A stretch of DNA of 22,349 bases from a virus, in IMG/VR virus record IMGVR_UViG_3300037587_000179, positions 1 to 22,349 of that record; one strand, given 5' to 3'. Below, piece after piece: positions 14,431-22,349 of this stretch. Every line of letters starts with the position of its first letter. Positions within the stretch are counted from its first letter, which is position 1. The notes below the pieces were generated by a model, which was not told where the DNA came from, made no database searches, and was given only the letters and a program-made list of their open reading frames with translations. The translations under genes were made by a program, and so were the position numbers.

Positions 14431-14817
14431 ATGCCACAACACATTAAGACATCACGACCCTCGGGAGATATCCGAGGGTTTCCATTTACGGTTGACTCAT
14501 CCGGAATTGTTGAAGGTCAATTATATATGATCAACGATACCGTTGGTTGTGCCTTTCAGGATAAAGACGAGGGCGAAGTCGGGACTCTCAATTACCACGT
14601 TGAAAAAATCCTATTAGAGAAAGCGGCGGCACTCACGATCTCGCTTGGACAAAAGATATTTTGGTCTGGGACCGATGGCGATCCCGTGACTAACGTATGT
14701 ACGTCCGGTTATTATTGGATCGGGATTTGTGTTCAAACTGCACTCGCGGGAACGGTTCTAGTTAAGTGCGATCTCAAAGGTGACAAGGCGACCATTTGTC
14801 CGGACGCGGGGGATTGA
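14431..14817 (+). CDS. Capsid decoration / cement protein (DUF2190-like)
   Basis: 128 residues; GAGGT stands five bases before the ATG. The N-terminal IKTSRPSGDIRGFPFTVDSSGIVEGQLYMIND and the later LTISLGQKIFWSG and YYWIGICVQTALAGTVLVKCDLKG form the beta-rich pattern of the DUF2190 family, small proteins that bind on the outer capsid surface and stabilise it, equivalent in role to lambda gpD. Five cysteines (40, 90, 100, 113, 123) are unusual for such a small capsid protein. It is directly upstream of the major capsid gene, the normal order. Confidence 0.85.
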   Translation: MPQHIKTSRPSGDIRGFPFTVDSSGIVEGQLYMINDTVGCAFQDKDEGEVGTLNYHVEKILLEKAAALTISLGQKIFWSGTDGDPVTNVCTSGYYWIGICVQTALAGTVLVKCDLKGDKATICPDAGD

Positions 14818-14819
14818 TC

Positions 14820-15911
14820 ATGAAACTGCAGTATTTCGAAAACCTAGAGAATTTCAACCGTGAAAAAAAGAGTCATCGCGAGGAGTTATTGACCTCATTA
14901 CAAATGATGGTCGGACTCCCGGACCTTTATGTCCCTCAAAGGTTTAGAGGGAACGACAAGAGGTCCAAACATTTCAAGGCGTTGAGGAGTTTATATCAAA
15001 AGGCAAGGGCGGAACGACAAGCGCAAATTCAGGGTTTCGGTAAACCCGGAGATTTCCCGGCGTCGGTCCTTCCTCTAATTGAGAAATTCCACGCCGTCCC
15101 GGATTATGATAACGGATATGAACAGATATTCGATATTCGCGATTACTCCGGATCAAAACGGAATGGTTTCGAGGTCGGTCTCGTAACATCGGGACTCGCC
15201 TTTGAACAAGCGTACATGAATGTCCCGATCCAAGTTCATCAAATGAGCGGAACAAAGGTGACGTGTAATTTCGACCTTTACGGAGGCGCGTTGTCATGGT
15301 CTCGTTTATTGTTCGATGACGAGGATTGGTGGACGATCGAGGACAATGCGAAAGCGTTTACCGCCGCCGCATATTCCCAGAGAGCGGGAATTTTTTACGC
15401 CTTGATCGAAATCGTCGCCGATGCGAAAGGTTGTTGCGATTGGGTCGCCGCTCCGAGCGGTTGTTCCGATTGTGACGTCAATGCCTATCGTGATGCCGCG
15501 TCGATGAACCTCGCCGCCCAAACAATCTTGTTGGCGGTACGGAATAAGGGATACGGCGTCAATGCACAAAATGCGCGATTCATCGTCCTAAACCCTCTTG
15601 AATTACGGGGTCGAATTCGCCAAGCGTTAAACGTCACCCTCCAAAGGTTCGCCGGGTCCGCCGGAATGGTTGACCATGCCTTTACTCAAATCACGTCCAT
15701 GATGTTGACGAACCGAAGTCGTTTCTTTGTGATCCTTCCGAAAGTCCGTCTCAAGGGCGGATATCGGATGGACCTCACATTCTTTAATGATTTCGACATT
15801 CTCACATATGCGGATACGCAAGCGGGATGGTTGAGGTATGGCGGCTGTGTCGGGGATACCGACCAAATCGAATGTATCGACGTCACACACGAATCGGGGT
15901 CTTGTCCGTAA
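14820..15911 (+). CDS. Major capsid protein (HK97-fold type)
   Basis: 363 residues from ATG 14820, two bases after the decoration gene stop; a start at 14796 would run into that gene. The ribosome site is weak (GGGGGAT), so translation is probably coupled. After a helical N-terminal part (1-70) come the E-loop-like and P-domain regions (FHAVPDYDNGYEQIFDIRDYS, 90-110), a spine-helix region (DNAKAFTAAAYSQRAGIFYALIEIV), and A-domain segments with NARFIVLNPLELRGRIRQAL (251-270) and RSRFFVILPKVRL. Eight cysteines are present, four of them in a short segment at 205-218 (GCCDW, SGCSDCD) and three near the C-terminus (343, 352, 362). Order after terminase, portal, protease and decoration protein makes the assignment firm though the family is only inferred. 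Confidence 0.88.
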   Translation: MKLQYFENLENFNREKKSHREELLTSLQMMVGLPDLYVPQRFRGNDKRSKHFKALRSLYQKARAERQAQIQGFGKPGDFPASVLPLIEKFHAVPDYDNGYEQIFDIRDYSGSKRNGFEVGLVTSGLAFEQAYMNVPIQVHQMSGTKVTCNFDLYGGALSWSRLLFDDEDWWTIEDNAKAFTAAAYSQRAGIFYALIEIVADAKGCCDWVAAPSGCSDCDVNAYRDAASMNLAAQTILLAVRNKGYGVNAQNARFIVLNPLELRGRIRQALNVTLQRFAGSAGMVDHAFTQITSMMLTNRSRFFVILPKVRLKGGYRMDLTFFNDFDILTYADTQAGWLRYGGCVGDTDQIECIDVTHESGSCP

Positions 15912-15943
15912 CGAGGTGACGGTTGATCATAGTGGAACCACAA

Positions 15944-15977
15944 GGGAGGAGGCGTCAAAACCTCCTCCCTTTTTTTT
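15944..15977 (+). terminator. Strong Rho-independent terminator after the capsid gene
   Basis: GGGAGGAGG (15944-15952) pairs perfectly with CCTCCTCCC (15961-15969) around an eight-base loop, followed by eight T (15970-15977). It ends the late operon beginning at 7231. The next genes start at 16083; the 105 bases between hold no convincing promoter. Confidence 0.95.
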
Positions 15978-16082: not shown

Positions 16083-16805
16083 ATGGAAATTGGACAAATA
16101 ACGACAAGCGATCGTGCGGTCCAACGAAAGGCGGCGGAACGAAATCGGAAACGAAACGAGGCGTTGAACCTCGTGACCATCCTCCCGGATCGGTCATGGA
16201 AAGGACAACGATGTTTCATTATCGGTGGCGGACCGTCATTGACCGGATTCGATTTTGAACGCCTCTGGGGAGAAAGAGTCATCGCGATTAACAAGGCGTT
16301 CGCCTCTTGTATGTTCGCGGACGTTCTTTACTTTATGGATTTCATTCATTTTTATACGAACATCGAGGACGGTCGATTCGGACCGGAGTATTTGGAGAAA
16401 TGGAAAGCGTTTAAAGGAATTAAGGTCCATGCCGATTCGCGAGGTCGCGATCTCCCGGATGTATATTGGATAAATCTCTCCTCGTATCAATACGGCGTAT
16501 CCACGTCTCAAAAGCGGGGATTGTTTCGCGGTTCAAATTGTGGATATGGCGCACTCAATCTCGCAGTCCTCATGAGGGCGAATCCAATTTACCTCCTCGG
16601 ATACGACATGAAACATGATGGAAAGATAACACATTTTCATGAGGGGTATTCGCGGACGGCACAAGGAAAGGCGTTGAAAACATTTATCGGCGAATTGGGC
16701 GCGATCCGTCATGATCTCAAGGCGCGGCGGATCAAGGTCGTAAATCTCAACCCGGATTCAGCGTTGAAATGGTTCGAGTTTTCAACGATTGATAAGGTGT
16801 TGTGA
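16083..16805 (+). CDS. DUF115 / Maf-like protein (putative glycosyltransferase)
   Basis: 240 residues from ATG 16083 with GAGG eight bases before; a TTG at 16080 is in frame but unneeded. The family features are CFIIGGGPSL (44-53, the nucleotide-binding Gly-rich turn), ERVIAINKAF (64-73), ADVLYFMDFIHF (79-90), GSNCGYGALNLAVLMRANPIYLLGYDM (150-176) and later HFHEGY. This is the DUF115/MptE-like fold, found in Maf flagellin glycosyltransferases and, in phages and bacteria, in glycan clusters. The enzyme probably binds a nucleotide-activated sugar or similar donor in the cytoplasm. It opens an operon of glycosyltransferases, to which it is coupled by a TGATG overlap. Confidence 0.82.
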   Translation: MEIGQITTSDRAVQRKAAERNRKRNEALNLVTILPDRSWKGQRCFIIGGGPSLTGFDFERLWGERVIAINKAFASCMFADVLYFMDFIHFYTNIEDGRFGPEYLEKWKAFKGIKVHADSRGRDLPDVYWINLSSYQYGVSTSQKRGLFRGSNCGYGALNLAVLMRANPIYLLGYDMKHDGKITHFHEGYSRTAQGKALKTFIGELGAIRHDLKARRIKVVNLNPDSALKWFEFSTIDKVL

Positions 16806-17419
16806 TGGAATGGATCATCATTTCGTATTACACGGTCGGGACCGGATACGAGGTCGAGATCGAAAAACTCCGTCAATCATTAATCAAATTCGAATTACCT
16901 CATCACATTGAGGGGATCAAGAGTCGCGGATCGTGGATCAAGAACGTCCATTATAACAATGAATTAATCCTCAAGGCGTTCGATATGTTCCCGGACAAGG
17001 CGATCGTCTCTCTCGATGCGGATGCGGTTGTCGAGAGATACCCGGCATTGTTCGACACGTTGGATTGTGATTTCGCCGCTCATATGCACACATGGAAATC
17101 CGGTCGCGTTGAGTTATTATGCTCAACGATGTATTGGCAAGGAAACCGAAAGACGCGTAAGTTTTTGGCGGAGGTGATTGAACGTCATAAGGTATATCCG
17201 CAAGAGACACAACAGCCGGGGATGTTAAGAACATTGAAATCATGGGGAATTCAAAGAATCAAGTTCGTCTCTCTCCCGCCGCAATACGCGAGGATATTCG
17301 ATCTCATGGAGTCGGTCAAGTATCCGGTCATCAATCAATATCAAGCGTCGAGACGATTCCGAAAGGCGGTCAATCGAGCGGGTATGCCGAAACAAATAAC
17401 GACGAGGGATTTGAAATGA
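16805..17419 (+). CDS. GT-A fold glycosyltransferase-like protein
   Basis: 204 residues; ATG 16805 overlaps the preceding stop (TGATG), preferred over GTG 16802. The N-terminal strand WIIISYYTVG is typical of nucleotide-diphospho-sugar transferases, and AIVSLDADAVVERYPALFD (66-84) contains the D71-A-D73 metal/donor motif. Later segments, WQGNRKTRKFLAEVI and YPVINQYQASRRFR, fit the acceptor side of small GT-A enzymes. It has no membrane segment. It belongs to the coupled series of sugar-transfer enzymes downstream of the capsid gene. Donor and acceptor cannot be deduced. Confidence 0.75.
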   Translation: MEWIIISYYTVGTGYEVEIEKLRQSLIKFELPHHIEGIKSRGSWIKNVHYNNELILKAFDMFPDKAIVSLDADAVVERYPALFDTLDCDFAAHMHTWKSGRVELLCSTMYWQGNRKTRKFLAEVIERHKVYPQETQQPGMLRTLKSWGIQRIKFVSLPPQYARIFDLMESVKYPVINQYQASRRFRKAVNRAGMPKQITTRDLK

Positions 17420-18027
17420 ATTGTGATTTGCACATTCTTGATTTATGTGGAGGGACGGGATCATGGAGTCGTCCATTTGTTGAGAATGGATGTAAAGTGA
17501 TAAATGTTACGCTCCCTAATTATGACGTTAGAACATTTTCCCCTCCAAATAATATTTGCGGAATTCTCGCAGCGCCTCCATGTCCAATGTTTTCTTTTAT
17601 GCGAACAAACGCTAAGAAACCAAGAGATTTAAAATGCGGGATGGAAATCGTTATTTCATGTTTGCAAATCATTTGGAAATGTCAATATAGAATAAAAAAA
17701 GATACTCAAAAATATTCGCCTTTAAAATTTTGGGCGTTAGAAAATCCTAGAGGGATGTTGAATTGGTTTCTCGGAAAACCTGCGTTTGAATTTAATCCAT
17801 ATGATTTTGGGGATAATTATAAGAAAAACACTTGTTTATGGGGACATTTTAAATCGCCTATTAAAAATCCGATCAAATGTGACAAGCCGAAATTCGATAG
17901 ATTATTGACAAAGGAAATTCATGGGGAATATTACGGAACGCTTTCAAGAACAGAAAGGCGGGCAATTACTCCGAATAGATTTGCAGATGCTTTTTTTAAT
18001 GCGAATAAATGCGATAAATTAAAATGA
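17416..18027 (+). CDS. Compact DNA C5-cytosine methyltransferase-like protein
   Basis: 203 residues from ATG 17416, overlapping the previous stop (ATGA). Motif I is LDLCGGTGSWSRPF (8-21), motif IV is AAPPCPMFSF (53-61) with the catalytic Cys56, and motif VI is WALENPRGM (107-114, usual ENV replaced by ENP). C-terminal TERRAITPNRFADAFFNAN corresponds to motif IX/X-like regions. At 203 residues it is much shorter than bacterial Dcm-type enzymes (over 300), so the target-recognition domain is reduced. It is clearly AT-richer than the glycosyltransferase genes on both sides and sits in the middle of their operon, which suggests insertion of a mobile 'moron'. Activity on DNA is likely but the target is unknown. 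Confidence 0.8.
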   Translation: MNCDLHILDLCGGTGSWSRPFVENGCKVINVTLPNYDVRTFSPPNNICGILAAPPCPMFSFMRTNAKKPRDLKCGMEIVISCLQIIWKCQYRIKKDTQKYSPLKFWALENPRGMLNWFLGKPAFEFNPYDFGDNYKKNTCLWGHFKSPIKNPIKCDKPKFDRLLTKEIHGEYYGTLSRTERRAITPNRFADAFFNANKCDKLK

Positions 18028-18701
18028 AAACGATCGACATGGTCCTCTCGACGAGGAACCGATACGATAAACTCCTCCGGATGATAAAATCCGTCCCTCC
18101 TCTCCGGAACCTCAATATCCATGTTGTATTCGATGGCGATCCACGCGGGTTCGAGATGTTCTCTCGTCTCCGGAAAGATCATTATCAAGGCGGGACGATG
18201 ACGGGATACTTGATCAAGGTCCATTCCGGGAGTGTCTTTTGTCGGAATTATGTTATCCCTCAATTTGAGGATGGCGTTTTGATCGCGTGTGATGATATTG
18301 TTTTCCATCCGGGCGCAATCGAATCGGCGTTTAAGAATTTCAATAAACGATTCAAGGATGGTTTCGGCGTTGTCGGATTCAATCAGTTTAACGCGGTCCC
18401 TCCGACAAACTTTTGTTGGACGGGCGTTTGTCTCGTCGGTCAAAAATACCTCAAATCTTATCCAAAGAAACAATTATTAAATCCAGAATATTTTCATTTC
18501 GCGACACGCGAAATCGAATGGAAAGCGGATAAATTAAAATGTTTGTATCGTGATCCGGAGGCGAAGATTTTTCATTATCATCCGGAGAGAATGGACGAGG
18601 AAATGGACCGGACCCATCGGGAGGCGCGAGTATTCCTCCGCGTGGATAGACGGATTAAAATATTCAGATCGCAAAAAGGAGAAATATGGGGAATAAACTA
18701 A
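18024..18701 (+). CDS. GT2-like glycosyltransferase
   Basis: 225 residues, coupled to the preceding gene by ATGA. The start MKTIDMVLSTRNRYDKLLRMIKSV is that of GT-A family 2 enzymes (beta strand, then helix). FCRNYVIPQFEDGVLIACDDIVFHPGAIESA (72-102) matches the donor site: N75 and the DD pair at 90-91 replacing DxD. The following GFGVVGFNQFN and WTGVCLVGQKYLK and C-terminal FATREIEWKADKLKCLYRDPEAKIFHYHP are in the acceptor half. The gene end overlaps the next gene by 16 bases. It probably transfers a sugar from a nucleotide-sugar to a cytoplasmic acceptor. Confidence 0.8.
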   Translation: MKTIDMVLSTRNRYDKLLRMIKSVPPLRNLNIHVVFDGDPRGFEMFSRLRKDHYQGGTMTGYLIKVHSGSVFCRNYVIPQFEDGVLIACDDIVFHPGAIESAFKNFNKRFKDGFGVVGFNQFNAVPPTNFCWTGVCLVGQKYLKSYPKKQLLNPEYFHFATREIEWKADKLKCLYRDPEAKIFHYHPERMDEEMDRTHREARVFLRVDRRIKIFRSQKGEIWGIN

Positions 18702-19531
18702 AACACATCGTTCAAGTCTTTTTGGATATTGAGAGACCATCGGGGATCGTATTGACGGAGGCGTTTGTCAATTATAGATGGGATTTTTTTATGCAATACA
18801 CATATCCCTCTTTAGTGAATCAAACGTTCCAAGATTTTGAAATTTGGTTGATATGCGGATGGCGTCATCGGGCGATAACCGGGAACATTCATTGTCATGA
18901 GAACACTCGAATAAAAATAATTTATCCGGTTCCCGTTGATCCGACTCTCTCATCCGTCGTTGGTGACACGTTCACGATCGCGCCCAAGTGGAGAAAGAAA
19001 CCGACATTGATGATCAAGGAATTCGGGGAACAAGACGCCGATTATCTCGCGATCACCCGGATCGATTCGGACGATCTCTTTAGTCGCGATGCGATGTTAG
19101 AGATTCATGGGGAGGCAAATATCGCCATTCACAAGGTAGGAATCGAGGAACGCTGTCGTCTCCTTTTCACGGAGTATATTTATTGGGATATGTTGAATCA
19201 TTTTATCTCATTTCAACGATGGGAGAATCCGCCGTTTTATACTCATGTTTTCCCGCGAGAGGTTTATCAAGATTGGGACCGTCTCCAAAAACTACATTTC
19301 AATAATCATCGATACATGGGCGGCGGACATGAAAAGATATTATGTCCATATAAGGTTCTTGTCACATATCACAAACAAAATATCGCGAGGATCAAACGAG
19401 GAAAGGAATTGAATCATTACACAAAAGTAAAATTGGATGAATTCCGGAGGAAAGGATTCAGGATTGAAACGAACCGATCGATCATGGATCAACATTTGAG
19501 AGAATTCGAGGTGTATGATTATGCGAGTTAG
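18686..19531 (+). CDS. Putative rhamnosyltransferase-like glycosyltransferase
   Basis: 281 residues; AAAGGAG lies seven bases before the ATG, inside the end of the preceding gene. TYPSLVNQTFQDFEIWLICGW (39-59) and DYLAITRIDSDDLFSRDAM (119-137, metal-binding D127-S-D129-D130) match the pattern of the 'putative rhamnosyl transferase' family (PF11316 type), as do VFPREVY and the C-terminal HKQNIARIK. The donor is therefore guessed to be a deoxysugar nucleotide such as dTDP-rhamnose, but the evidence is family resemblance only. No membrane segment. Its end overlaps the next gene by 11 bases. Confidence 0.7.
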   Translation: MGNKLKHIVQVFLDIERPSGIVLTEAFVNYRWDFFMQYTYPSLVNQTFQDFEIWLICGWRHRAITGNIHCHENTRIKIIYPVPVDPTLSSVVGDTFTIAPKWRKKPTLMIKEFGEQDADYLAITRIDSDDLFSRDAMLEIHGEANIAIHKVGIEERCRLLFTEYIYWDMLNHFISFQRWENPPFYTHVFPREVYQDWDRLQKLHFNNHRYMGGGHEKILCPYKVLVTYHKQNIARIKRGKELNHYTKVKLDEFRRKGFRIETNRSIMDQHLREFEVYDYAS

Positions 19532-20300
19532 CGTCACCATCCTTGCGTGTGATCGTTCGGAGATGACGATCAAATGTCTTGATCATCTCCGGAAGAATAC
19601 GTTTTATCCATACACGTTGATTTTCATTGACAACGGTTCGGATTGGACTCATTTCAAGACAGTAAAAAATCATATCTCCTCTCATTGGAAAGAGGCGATG
19701 ATCATCCGGAATCCGCGAAATCTCTTTTATGCGGGTGGGACAAATGTTGGACTCCGGGCGGCGATCGAGTTACAGGAACGCCACGATCTTGTCGTTGCTG
19801 TATCGAATGACGTTTTTGTTTCCTCCGGATGGTTAAAGAAAATGGTCGAGTTGATGGCGCGGAATCCAAAGATCGGCGTCCTCTCGCCGTTGACGGACAA
19901 CATATCGAGGACGTGCGTCAATGCGGAATGGGTTGTTAAGCGATGGCAAATTCTCCGGAACGGGGAACCTTTGGAGGCGATCAATAAACTCCCGGCGAAA
20001 ATCCTTGCGTGTAATGGGAACGTCCCATTGTTTTGCGGCATGATCCGCCGCGAGGTGTTGGAGGATGTTGGTTATCTCCATGAGGATTTTTTCATTTTGG
20101 GCAACGATGACGATTACAATGACCGGGTCCGGACGGCGGGATGGATGACGGCGGCGGCGTTGAATGTATTCGTCAATCACATTCATGGTGCGACGAAACA
20201 TGAAATCTTTCCGGATCGATCGGAAATCCGGAAACGTCATCGCACTCTGTTGACCGAACGAAAGGCATATCGAAAAAGGACCGGAGATTATCGCGCATGA
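19521..20300 (+). CDS. Family 2 glycosyltransferase
   Basis: 259 residues; ATG 19521 is chosen over ATG 19515 because GAGG (19508-19511) is then nine rather than three bases away. It shows the classic GT2 layout: VSVTILACDRSEMTIKCLDHL (3-23), LIFIDNGS (33-40), NPRNLFYAGGTNVGLRAAIEL (64-84), VVAVSNDVFVSSGWLKKMVELM (91-112, the SND metal/donor site), then VLSPLTDN, FCGMIRREVLEDVGYLHEDFFILGNDDDYNDRVRTAGW and an HIHGATKHE end. The aspartate-rich GNDDDY stretch is the catalytic-base region. It transfers a sugar from a nucleotide donor. Coupled to the sulfotransferase by a four-base ATGA overlap. Confidence 0.9.
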   Translation: MRVSVTILACDRSEMTIKCLDHLRKNTFYPYTLIFIDNGSDWTHFKTVKNHISSHWKEAMIIRNPRNLFYAGGTNVGLRAAIELQERHDLVVAVSNDVFVSSGWLKKMVELMARNPKIGVLSPLTDNISRTCVNAEWVVKRWQILRNGEPLEAINKLPAKILACNGNVPLFCGMIRREVLEDVGYLHEDFFILGNDDDYNDRVRTAGWMTAAALNVFVNHIHGATKHEIFPDRSEIRKRHRTLLTERKAYRKRTGDYRA

Positions 20301-20974
20301 AAACGACATATGTCATTATCACGGGTATGCACAGGACCGGGACGTCCATGTTGGCGGGTGCGCTCGGGATTTGTGGACTCGATATCGGGACCAATTTCCG
20401 ACCGGAACCTCATCCATGCAATCCGAAAGGATATTTTGAGGATTTGGATTTTAAAAGAATCAACCGTAAATTGATGAGGGCGGCGGGGATTGGACCGGGA
20501 TCATTCATATTCCCGGACAAATGGACAATCCTCCCGGACTCGGTCAAGCGTCGAGACGAAATGATCGACCTTATTCAGCGATGGCGACGCGGTCATCCGG
20601 TCGGATGGAAAGACCCGCGCGCGTGTTTGACATTAGGCATTTGGAAAAAGTATATTCCGGATTTAAAAGTGATCACGATCTCGCGTCCGACAATCGAGAT
20701 CGCGAATTCTCTCCATACGCGACGATCGGATTATCCAATCGAACATGGTTTGGCGGTTACGAAGATTTACCTCGAACAGTTAGAATATCATTGTAAAGGC
20801 ATCGACCGTTTGGATGTTCAATATCATGATTTTTTCGGGGATAAAGAAACAAGAGAACTTATTTTTTTCCATTTATGTGTATTTGTTGGTGTCGATCCGG
20901 TCAAGGGATGGTTGAATAAGATCGACGGTTTTATTGATAAGAAATTATGGCGAGAAAGGCAATCGGTAAAATGA
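20297..20974 (+). CDS. Sulfotransferase (PAPS-dependent, P-loop-like)
   Basis: 225 residues. The 5'-phosphosulfate loop is clear at the N-terminus: ITGMHRTGTSMLAGAL (8-23), followed by GYFEDLDFKRINRKLM, GWKDPRACLTLGIW and the 3'-phosphate site VITISRPTIEIANSLHTRR (Arg and Ser of the R-x-n-S pair). Together these are hallmarks of sulfotransferases acting on carbohydrates or small molecules with PAPS as donor. Phage sulfotransferases are uncommon. Placed between a glycosyltransferase and a radical SAM-like gene with ATGA overlaps on both sides, it is well placed to sulfate a glycan. The target is unknown, and host PAPS is required. Confidence 0.88.
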   Translation: MKTTYVIITGMHRTGTSMLAGALGICGLDIGTNFRPEPHPCNPKGYFEDLDFKRINRKLMRAAGIGPGSFIFPDKWTILPDSVKRRDEMIDLIQRWRRGHPVGWKDPRACLTLGIWKKYIPDLKVITISRPTIEIANSLHTRRSDYPIEHGLAVTKIYLEQLEYHCKGIDRLDVQYHDFFGDKETRELIFFHLCVFVGVDPVKGWLNKIDGFIDKKLWRERQSVK

Positions 20975-21726
20975 ACAATATCATAAAATCAATCAAGCGC
21001 GTCTCTTTTGAATTGTCGAACCTTTGCAATTATGCGGCGATCCATCCTCAATGTCCGGCGTCGAAAGTGAAGAGACCAATGTTTTTAAGTCAATCGAAAA
21101 TTATCAATGTTCTATATTCATTGTTCGGATGGGGATTCAACGAGACGATCGCATGGTATATTTACAACGAACCGACGATCGATCCGCGATTGATTAAACT
21201 TGTTGATTATACGTCTCGTCTATTCAATGGAGTAATCAAACAACGGATTGTGACCAATGGCGCGTATTTGGATCAAACATTGTTGGATGAATTTATCGAG
21301 GCGGGGATTACATATTTCAAGATCGATTGTTATACGCCGCGAGATTTGCATTATGCAAGACAATTGAAACCGAAAACGGAGATCGAGAAATTTAAGGTTA
21401 CAAAGAAATCATTAGATGATCGGATGACTCTTTATGATCTCCCGGCGAAGAATCTCGCGATTCCGTGTTATGCGCCATATGCGGATATCCAAATTAAATG
21501 TGATGGACGGATCGTGTTGTGCGCGATCGATTGGAAATCAACGGTCACGTTCGGGAATTTGAATAACGAACCGTTCGAGGACATTCTCCGATCACCCGCG
21601 ATGTTGAAAACGTACGAGAAATTGAGGGTCGGTGAACGGACTCCCGATGTTTGTTCGCGGTGTAACCGGACCGTCACGGGTGATTCGTGTCTCAAAACGT
21701 CAAAGTATTTTAAGGAGGGGAAATGA
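20971..21726 (+). CDS. SPASM-type radical SAM-like protein with non-canonical cluster motif
   Basis: 251 residues from ATG 20971 (overlap ATGA). Start of the barrel reads VSFELSNLCNYAAIHPQCP: C19 and C28 with H25 between, i.e. C-x5-H-x2-C instead of C-x3-C-x2-C. The later radical SAM landmarks are present: WYIYNEPTIDPRLI (62-75, the GGEP-type motif as YNEP), RIVTNGAYL (92-100), ITYFKIDC. The C-terminus holds a SPASM-like set: C166, C177, C184 (dG-x-IVLCAIDW then FGNLNNE) and C228-x2-C231, C240. Such proteins use S-adenosylmethionine and one or more 4Fe-4S clusters to start radical reactions, often on peptides or sugars. Whether the radical cluster forms here is uncertain. Confidence 0.75.
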   Translation: MNNIIKSIKRVSFELSNLCNYAAIHPQCPASKVKRPMFLSQSKIINVLYSLFGWGFNETIAWYIYNEPTIDPRLIKLVDYTSRLFNGVIKQRIVTNGAYLDQTLLDEFIEAGITYFKIDCYTPRDLHYARQLKPKTEIEKFKVTKKSLDDRMTLYDLPAKNLAIPCYAPYADIQIKCDGRIVLCAIDWKSTVTFGNLNNEPFEDILRSPAMLKTYEKLRVGERTPDVCSRCNRTVTGDSCLKTSKYFKEGK

Positions 21727-22349
21727 AAGATACCGCGATTGTTGTCATCGCATATAAACGTCCTAAACTTTTGATGGAATGTTTGAAATCGATCCGACAA
21801 TTCTATCCCGCGATTCCGATTGTAATTTCTCATAATGGAATCCGAACATTTAGCGAAAGAGATAAAATCCTAAAACGATTAGACCCTATTATCGAAACGC
21901 TCATTGTTCAACCTTTCGATTGTGGCGCGAATCAAGCTCGGAGAGACGGATTATTCTTTGCACATTACAATTTACAATGCAAATACGCGGTACTGATCGA
22001 GGATGATATGAAATTCACGCGTTCAACGCATTTGGAGGCATTTTATAACGTCCTTGAACGAGACGTGGGGGTCGGCATGGTCGGAGGCGCGGTGAGGACG
22101 AGAGGACGTTTAGGCGCGATCGGTTCATACCTTAAAATCGATCAAGAACGCGGGGTCTTTTGGCGGACGCGGGTCGATGAATTGACGGATTGGAGTGACG
22201 CGGACGGGACGGCGAATGGGACAAGTTATCTCTATTGTGATTACGTCCGAATGTTTTTCATGGTCCACCGGGATATGGAGATCGATTGGGAGGTCGGATT
22301 GTATCCATCGTCCGGGTCTCATTTATCGATCATGTTGAAATTATTGAAT
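21723..22349 (+). CDS. Family 2-like glycosyltransferase, 3' end beyond window
   Basis: ATG 21723 overlaps the preceding stop (ATGA), and AAGGAGGGG precedes it by few bases. 209 codons are visible with no stop before the window ends. The N-terminus KDTAIVVIAYKRPKLLMECLKSI is a GT-A start; NQARRDGLFFAHYNLQCKYAVLIEDDMKFTRSTHLEAF contains the EDD metal/donor motif. Later VGGAVRTRGRLG and YVRMFFMVHRDM fit an acceptor half. It continues the sugar-transfer operon. The donor sugar is unknown. Confidence 0.82.
   Translation, partial: MKDTAIVVIAYKRPKLLMECLKSIRQFYPAIPIVISHNGIRTFSERDKILKRLDPIIETLIVQPFDCGANQARRDGLFFAHYNLQCKYAVLIEDDMKFTRSTHLEAFYNVLERDVGVGMVGGAVRTRGRLGAIGSYLKIDQERGVFWRTRVDELTDWSDADGTANGTSYLYCDYVRMFFMVHRDMEIDWEVGLYPSSGSHLSIMLKLLN

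Follow-up and report, generated by a model that had tools for sequence, protein, structure and literature searches.

Why does a bacteriophage carry a run of glycosyltransferase genes directly behind the gene for its major capsid protein? This question is raised by a 22,349-base phage contig from IMG/VR (IMGVR_UViG_3300037587_000179; hereafter the window), in which nine tightly coupled genes, g1 to g9, lie 3′ of the capsid gene and a hairpin and run to the contig end. The best-supported answer, to which we assign a probability of about 0.7, is that their products form a system dedicated to capsid glycosylation, in which the major capsid protein is the main acceptor. The target is narrowed to the virion head because the first gene, a homologue of the DUF115 family, is tied to the capsid gene, membrane and flippase components are lacking, and the g2 product is predicted to fold like a viral capsid glycosyltransferase. 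Among relatives with at least 1 kb visible downstream of the capsid gene, a DUF115 homologue lies on the same strand within 1 kb of it in 59 of 60 loci. To our knowledge, the only phages known to have glycosylated capsids are a few mycobacteriophages.

The original prediction placed a glycan operon directly behind the capsid gene and read it as several enzymatic steps leading to a sulfated or otherwise modified glycan, perhaps on the capsid, the decoration protein, the tail or the host envelope. Gene calls and recurrence in relatives confirm the position, and the pathway is supported, with the virion head now its favored target. The features concerned are the following.

14431..14817, + strand: head decoration protein, candidate second acceptor (phrog_122 head decoration, E 8e-8)
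14820..15911, + strand: major capsid protein, proposed acceptor (Phage_capsid_4, E 2.5e-5, just below cut-off; gene order in relatives)
15942..15971, + strand: terminator-like hairpin with a T-run, between capsid and glycan genes (11-pair stem)
16083..16805, + strand: g1, DUF115/MptE-like, sialyltransferase-like glycosyltransferase; universal first gene, proposed initiating enzyme (MptE-like/DUF115, E 1.2e-5; phrog_4603, 2e-27)
16805..17419, + strand: g2, GT-A-fold glycosyltransferase with a DAD motif (top PDB fold matches PBCV-1 A064R-D1); translation could also start from the GTG at 16802
17416..18027, + strand: g3, DNA-methyltransferase-like, AT-rich, lineage-specific insertion (phrog_757, E 5e-28)
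18024..18701, + strand: g4, GT2-like glycosyltransferase (its homologue L005:13894-14571 matches GT2, E 2.9e-11)
18686..19531, + strand: g5, rhamnosyltransferase-like (PF11316, Rhamno_transf, E 1.4e-5, above cut-off)
19515..20300, + strand: g6, GT2 glycosyltransferase (PF00535, E 8.8e-12; NCBIfam rhamnosyltran, E 8e-9, below cut-off)
20297..20974, + strand: g7, sulfotransferase-like (Sulfotransfer_3, E 4.4e-4, below cut-off)
20971..21726, + strand: g8, radical SAM/SPASM protein, BtrN-like, with a non-canonical cluster motif (SPASM, E 2.8e-11, plus Radical_SAM; PDB BtrN, E 7e-7)
21723..22349, + strand: g9, GT2-like glycosyltransferase, truncated at the contig end (PF00535, E 8e-4, weak)

Linkage to the capsid gene and exchange of later enzymes

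In an unbiased test of linkage, 80 contigs were fetched by capsid sequence alone and then searched with a DUF115 profile. The count given above is the stricter one; a looser count of 67/68 took in short contigs only when they were positive. The capsids of the 60-locus set are diverse, falling into 42 groups at 90 % identity and 17 at 70 %, and the background rate is low, the window g1 as query matching 37 of 50,697 phage records. The sole exception, L159, whose capsid is the furthest removed of all (29 % identity), carries its DUF115 gene 4.8 kb downstream. Behind the capsid homologue of Microcystis phage MACPNOA1, whose capsid is more remote still, no DUF115 gene was found within 12 kb. Scattering of the genes in relatives, which the original prediction regarded as fatal to it, was thus not observed.

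The order of the operon is also retained. A relative with a 95 % identical capsid, L002, has the same order without g3, followed by a methyltransferase and another glycosyltransferase-like open reading frame (ORF). The order is not due to chance, since L003 and dozens of contigs at greater distance share it with L002. Wherever the head-tail connector is visible (30/30 loci), an insert of 3.2-9.4 kb between capsid and connector genes holds the cassette.

Pairwise identities of the portal and DUF115 proteins rise with that of the capsid (Spearman 0.76 and, over 53 loci, 0.70), those of the decoration protein less so (0.45, 34 loci) and those of g2 hardly (0.17), all four values being descriptive only, since pairwise identities are not independent. 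Because DUF115 identity tracks the capsid and g2 identity does not, these comparisons indicate that capsid and first enzyme are inherited together and that later enzymes are swapped between phages. Where a glycosyltransferase gene persists in a lineage almost as reliably as the one for the portal, a coat of sugar could rank among the core components of the phage particle.

The make-up of the cassette differs from relative to relative. A Pfam tally of 110 cassette proteins, taken without DUF115 genes and long fusions, includes GT2, methyltransferases, epimerases, nucleotide-sugar transferases, radical SAM proteins, polysaccharide deacetylases, LicD and cupins. Homologues of g4 were found in 27 loci. 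Of 58 loci that either extend 1.5 kb past DUF115 or gave a match, 30 contain g2, fused to DUF115 in 19 and separate nearby in 11; elsewhere DUF115 is fused to GT9, GT2, Capsule_synth, or methyltransferase plus GT29 domains. One protein of 1021 residues (L135:10957-14022) combines DUF115, two g2-type domains, a methyltransferase and a GT29 sialyltransferase domain.

Enzymes of the cassette and their probable sugar donors

The structural model of g1 (predicted local distance difference test, pLDDT, 92.8) finds its best specific PDB matches among GT29 sialyltransferases, such as ST8SiaIII with the cytidine monophosphate (CMP) sugar CMP-3FNeu5Ac (prob 0.97, template modelling (TM) score 0.42, E 7e-3). 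A profile search gives a weak match to Cst-II (E 0.05-0.1), and the PHROG label of its family, phrog_4603, is alpha-2,3-sialyltransferase. Fold matches in BFVD are named MptE-like and support a distant kinship to DUF115/MptE-like proteins. Among relatives, adjacent KdsA and KdsB genes for CMP-Kdo synthesis occur at L161:722-2208, above or near curated cut-offs, a KdsB-like protein is found in L160, and the L159 phage (L162:1486-2971; L164:1165-2013) encodes NeuB, a cytidylyltransferase and APS kinase, which represent donor genes for a sialic-acid-like sugar and for sulfate. Together, the PDB, Cst-II and PHROG matches and these CMP-sugar genes point to a CMP-activated 3-deoxy-ulosonate as donor. 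The window itself contains no CMP-sugar synthesis genes; the expectation that donors would come from the host or from beyond the window needs amending for those relatives that partly encode their own.

For g2 (pLDDT 91.9) the four best PDB matches are all domain 1 of PBCV-1 A064R, with TM scores of 0.65-0.72. GT6 and GT8 enzymes fit the model nearly as well, so the match identifies a fold class and not a substrate. Residues D71 and D73 are invariant, as in a GT-A fold with a DxD motif; g2 has no Pfam match, and a profile search of PDB sequences detected no homology to A064R. Domain 1 of A064R is a beta-L-rhamnosyltransferase of the chlorovirus capsid glycan; the remainder of the protein includes a methyltransferase and another rhamnosyltransferase (PMC9614988, PMC7826918).

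The families named in the original prediction, a DUF115/Maf-like protein, five glycosyltransferases, a sulfotransferase and a radical-SAM-like protein, were all found, several of them below cut-off, and most operon genes have no NCBIfam equivalog. Its eight coupled genes stand, to which the overlooked g3 adds a ninth. Its description of the junctions as almost all ATGA overlaps was slightly strong: five of the eight are ATGA, one is GTGA/TGATG and two are overlaps of 16-17 nucleotides. As it had stated, the proteins contain no membrane segments, the highest 19-residue Kyte-Doolittle mean being 1.56.

Assignments that are weak in the window gain from relatives. The g4 protein has no Pfam match of its own, but its L005 homologue matches GT2; for the truncated g9, the full-length homologue in L002 matches PF00535 at E 1.4e-13. 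Homologues of g7 occur in the L005 and L006 cassettes next to a clear Sulfotransfer_1 protein, and the L005 match (E 7.5e-20, well above the Pfam cut-off) supports a predicted sulfation at the level of the lineage. The closest PDB protein to g8 is BtrN, and a plasmid homologue of g8 adjoins a 2-deoxy-scyllo-inosose synthase gene, so the likely role of g8 is oxidation of a sugar. In g8 and in a jumbo-phage homologue, CNYAAIHPxC replaces the canonical CX3CX2C cluster motif; the homologue on the Sodalis plasmid retains CNRRCTYC (loci of this comparison: window 20971-21726, L167:3998-4708 and L168:5989-6696).

The remaining gene, g3, stands apart. Its GC content at third codon positions is 0.275 against 0.47-0.58 in neighboring genes, a homologue is absent from every relative fetched, and its position in L002 and L003 is taken by a short ORF unrelated to it. 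It looks like a recent acquisition, foreign in composition, and is probably outside the glycan pathway.

The proposed acceptor and its alternatives

From these observations we infer an acceptor, a donor, an order of steps and a purpose. In the host cytoplasm, g1 would recognize one of the head proteins in its folded state, most likely the major capsid protein, whose gene lies immediately upstream, and attach the first sugar, probably a CMP-activated 3-deoxy-ulosonate of the Kdo, sialic, pseudaminic or legionaminic type. The glycosyltransferases g2, g4, g5, g6 and g9 would then extend the chain with neutral or rhamnose-type sugars, g8 would oxidize one sugar and g7 would add sulfate. Exchange of the later enzymes would give each phage a different surface glycan on every capsomer, and the resulting variable coat may serve in shielding, hydration or adhesion. 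Extended to the lineage, the proposal is that widespread uncultured tailed phages obligately glycosylate their capsids, DUF115 priming with a CMP-activated ulosonic acid and the exchangeable cassette building a phage-specific, sometimes sulfated glycan; this broader claim we regard as an even bet. If true, the lineage would be a bacterial-virus counterpart of chlorovirus capsid glycosylation, and its cassette a natural toolbox of soluble enzymes that build glycans on a self-assembling protein shell.

The same enzymes might instead glycosylate another nearby virion protein, such as the decoration, connector or tail tube protein. The decoration gene lies directly 5′ of the capsid gene and, in the account given in PMC12619734, the glycans of mycobacteriophages are found on the tail tube as well as on the capsid. 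However, the gene next to DUF115 is the capsid gene, and the decoration protein tracks the capsid less well than DUF115 does (0.45 against 0.70), which makes this alternative unlikely. We consider it quite improbable that the cassette acts on the host envelope, altering lipopolysaccharide (LPS), capsule or another surface glycan so as to block superinfection or change the receptor, much as in serotype conversion. The rhamnosyltransferase, Capsule_synth, GT9 and LicD families of the cassettes do resemble LPS and capsule enzymes, and two relatives carry Kdo synthesis genes. Serotype-conversion (gtr) modules, however, include a membrane flippase and a polyprenyl-sugar transferase, whereas the window encodes neither of these nor any other membrane protein, and the cassettes of relatives are almost devoid of hydrophobic ORFs, a single glycosyltransferase fusion among 163 reaching borderline hydrophobicity. 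The locus moreover lies within the head-assembly region with DUF115 tied to the capsid gene, a tie for which an envelope enzyme would have no need.

Hypermodification of DNA, in which the glycosyltransferases would decorate a modified phage base starting from 5-methylcytosine supplied by g3, has in its favor the DNA-methyltransferase-like gene inside the operon and the existence of DNA-decorating phage glycosyltransferases, as cited in PMC12619734. We hold it to be highly improbable, since a thymidylate-synthase-type hydroxymethylase (PF00303) was found in 0/25 records while the positive control matched 9/14, and g3 is missing from all relatives and compositionally foreign. A search for Tet_JBP (PF12851) was also negative, which is weak evidence as its control was silent too, and a PF00145 search missed even g3 and is hence uninformative on divergent DNA methyltransferases. 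Furthermore, DUF115 homologues adjoin structural and not replication genes. The D3-like phage PMG1 has one directly 3′ of its capsid gene and terminator, L094-type phages carry one behind the tail sheath and L086 near the major head protein, and in the Caulobacter phage CcrColossus it follows a tail protein and precedes GT9, nucleotide-sugar transferase and methyltransferase genes. This recurrence behind major virion genes that are unrelated to one another also speaks for capsid glycosylation. Phages that can be grown, namely the D3-like ones of Pseudomonas and the giant phages of Caulobacter, have a gene of this type next to a capsid or tail gene and so offer testable models.

Several points weigh against capsid glycosylation itself. 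The proposal is drawn from gene content, linkage and predicted folds, and linkage to the capsid could stem from shared late expression rather than a shared substrate. The resemblance of g1 to sialyltransferases is weak, its model having no PDB match at E <= 0.001, and its score against PF01973 (DUF115/MptE-like), 25.6 bits, is under the 34.6-bit Pfam gathering cut-off. CMP-sugar synthesis genes occur in only 3/24 phage records, and none lies in the window. A paper on a D3-like capsid structure does not mention sugar. A C-terminal Ser/Thr tail was considered as a universal acceptor and rejected, as capsid C-termini vary between sublineages: ESGSCP is conserved in that of the window, and other sublineages end without it.

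Known systems place capsid glycosylation in context. Virion glycosylation by phage enzymes is already known; the obligate capsid linkage, the DUF115 first enzyme and the exchangeable cassette are new here, and in the paper collection searched none dealt with phage DUF115. Mycobacteriophages Che8 and Rita carry glycans at the C-termini of capsid and tail-tube proteins (Freeman et al. 2023, as reported in PMC12619734 and PMC11256854). By these accounts, phage-encoded soluble glycosyltransferases, a feature shared by the window, are thought to glycosylate the virion proteins there; glycans are proven in that system, whereas ours is known from its genes. In the related mycobacteriophage Maravista, as described, the enzyme genes lie near the 3′ end of the genome, whereas here DUF115 is fixed behind the capsid and followed by a longer, variable cassette. 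PBCV-1 (A064R, A111/114R; PMC9614988, PMC7826918) likewise encodes mostly soluble, multi-domain transferases including rhamnose-type enzymes, and shares with these phages the A064R-D1 fold of g2 and transferase-methyltransferase fusions (here L135). It differs as a virus of eukaryotes whose capsid is unrelated and bears N-glycans; A064R adds terminal sugars.

Maf/DUF115 flagellin glycosyltransferases, as described in PMC4065374, modify a major surface protein in the cytoplasm with a sialic-acid-like sugar. The MptE-like/DUF115 domain of g1 is related to theirs. Unlike the Maf proteins, which are larger, g1 has a single domain and 240 residues, scores below the Pfam cut-off and has its gene behind that of a capsid. 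In PMG1 the corresponding gene, orf7, is annotated as an alpha-2,3-sialyltransferase and shares the position right behind capsid and terminator, but D3-like phages have one or two such genes without a long tailoring cassette, and a profile comparison of the two capsids, from a shallow profile, detected no homology.

Surrounding genes and possible host

Upstream, the window encodes an exonuclease, a replication-initiation protein, a DNA methyltransferase, the small and large terminase subunits, the decoration protein and the capsid, in that order; TerS-TerL-portal-protease/scaffold-decoration-capsid is the order kept among relatives. The hairpin between capsid and DUF115 genes is found in the same place in 35/68 relatives by our own uncalibrated scan, and is annotated in PMG1. 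The window has no DNA similarity match among cultured phages. Two capsid relatives with DUF115, L097 and L098, lie inside contigs of two Candidatus Aminicenantes genome bins, which makes this phylum a possible host, with binning error as the alternative.

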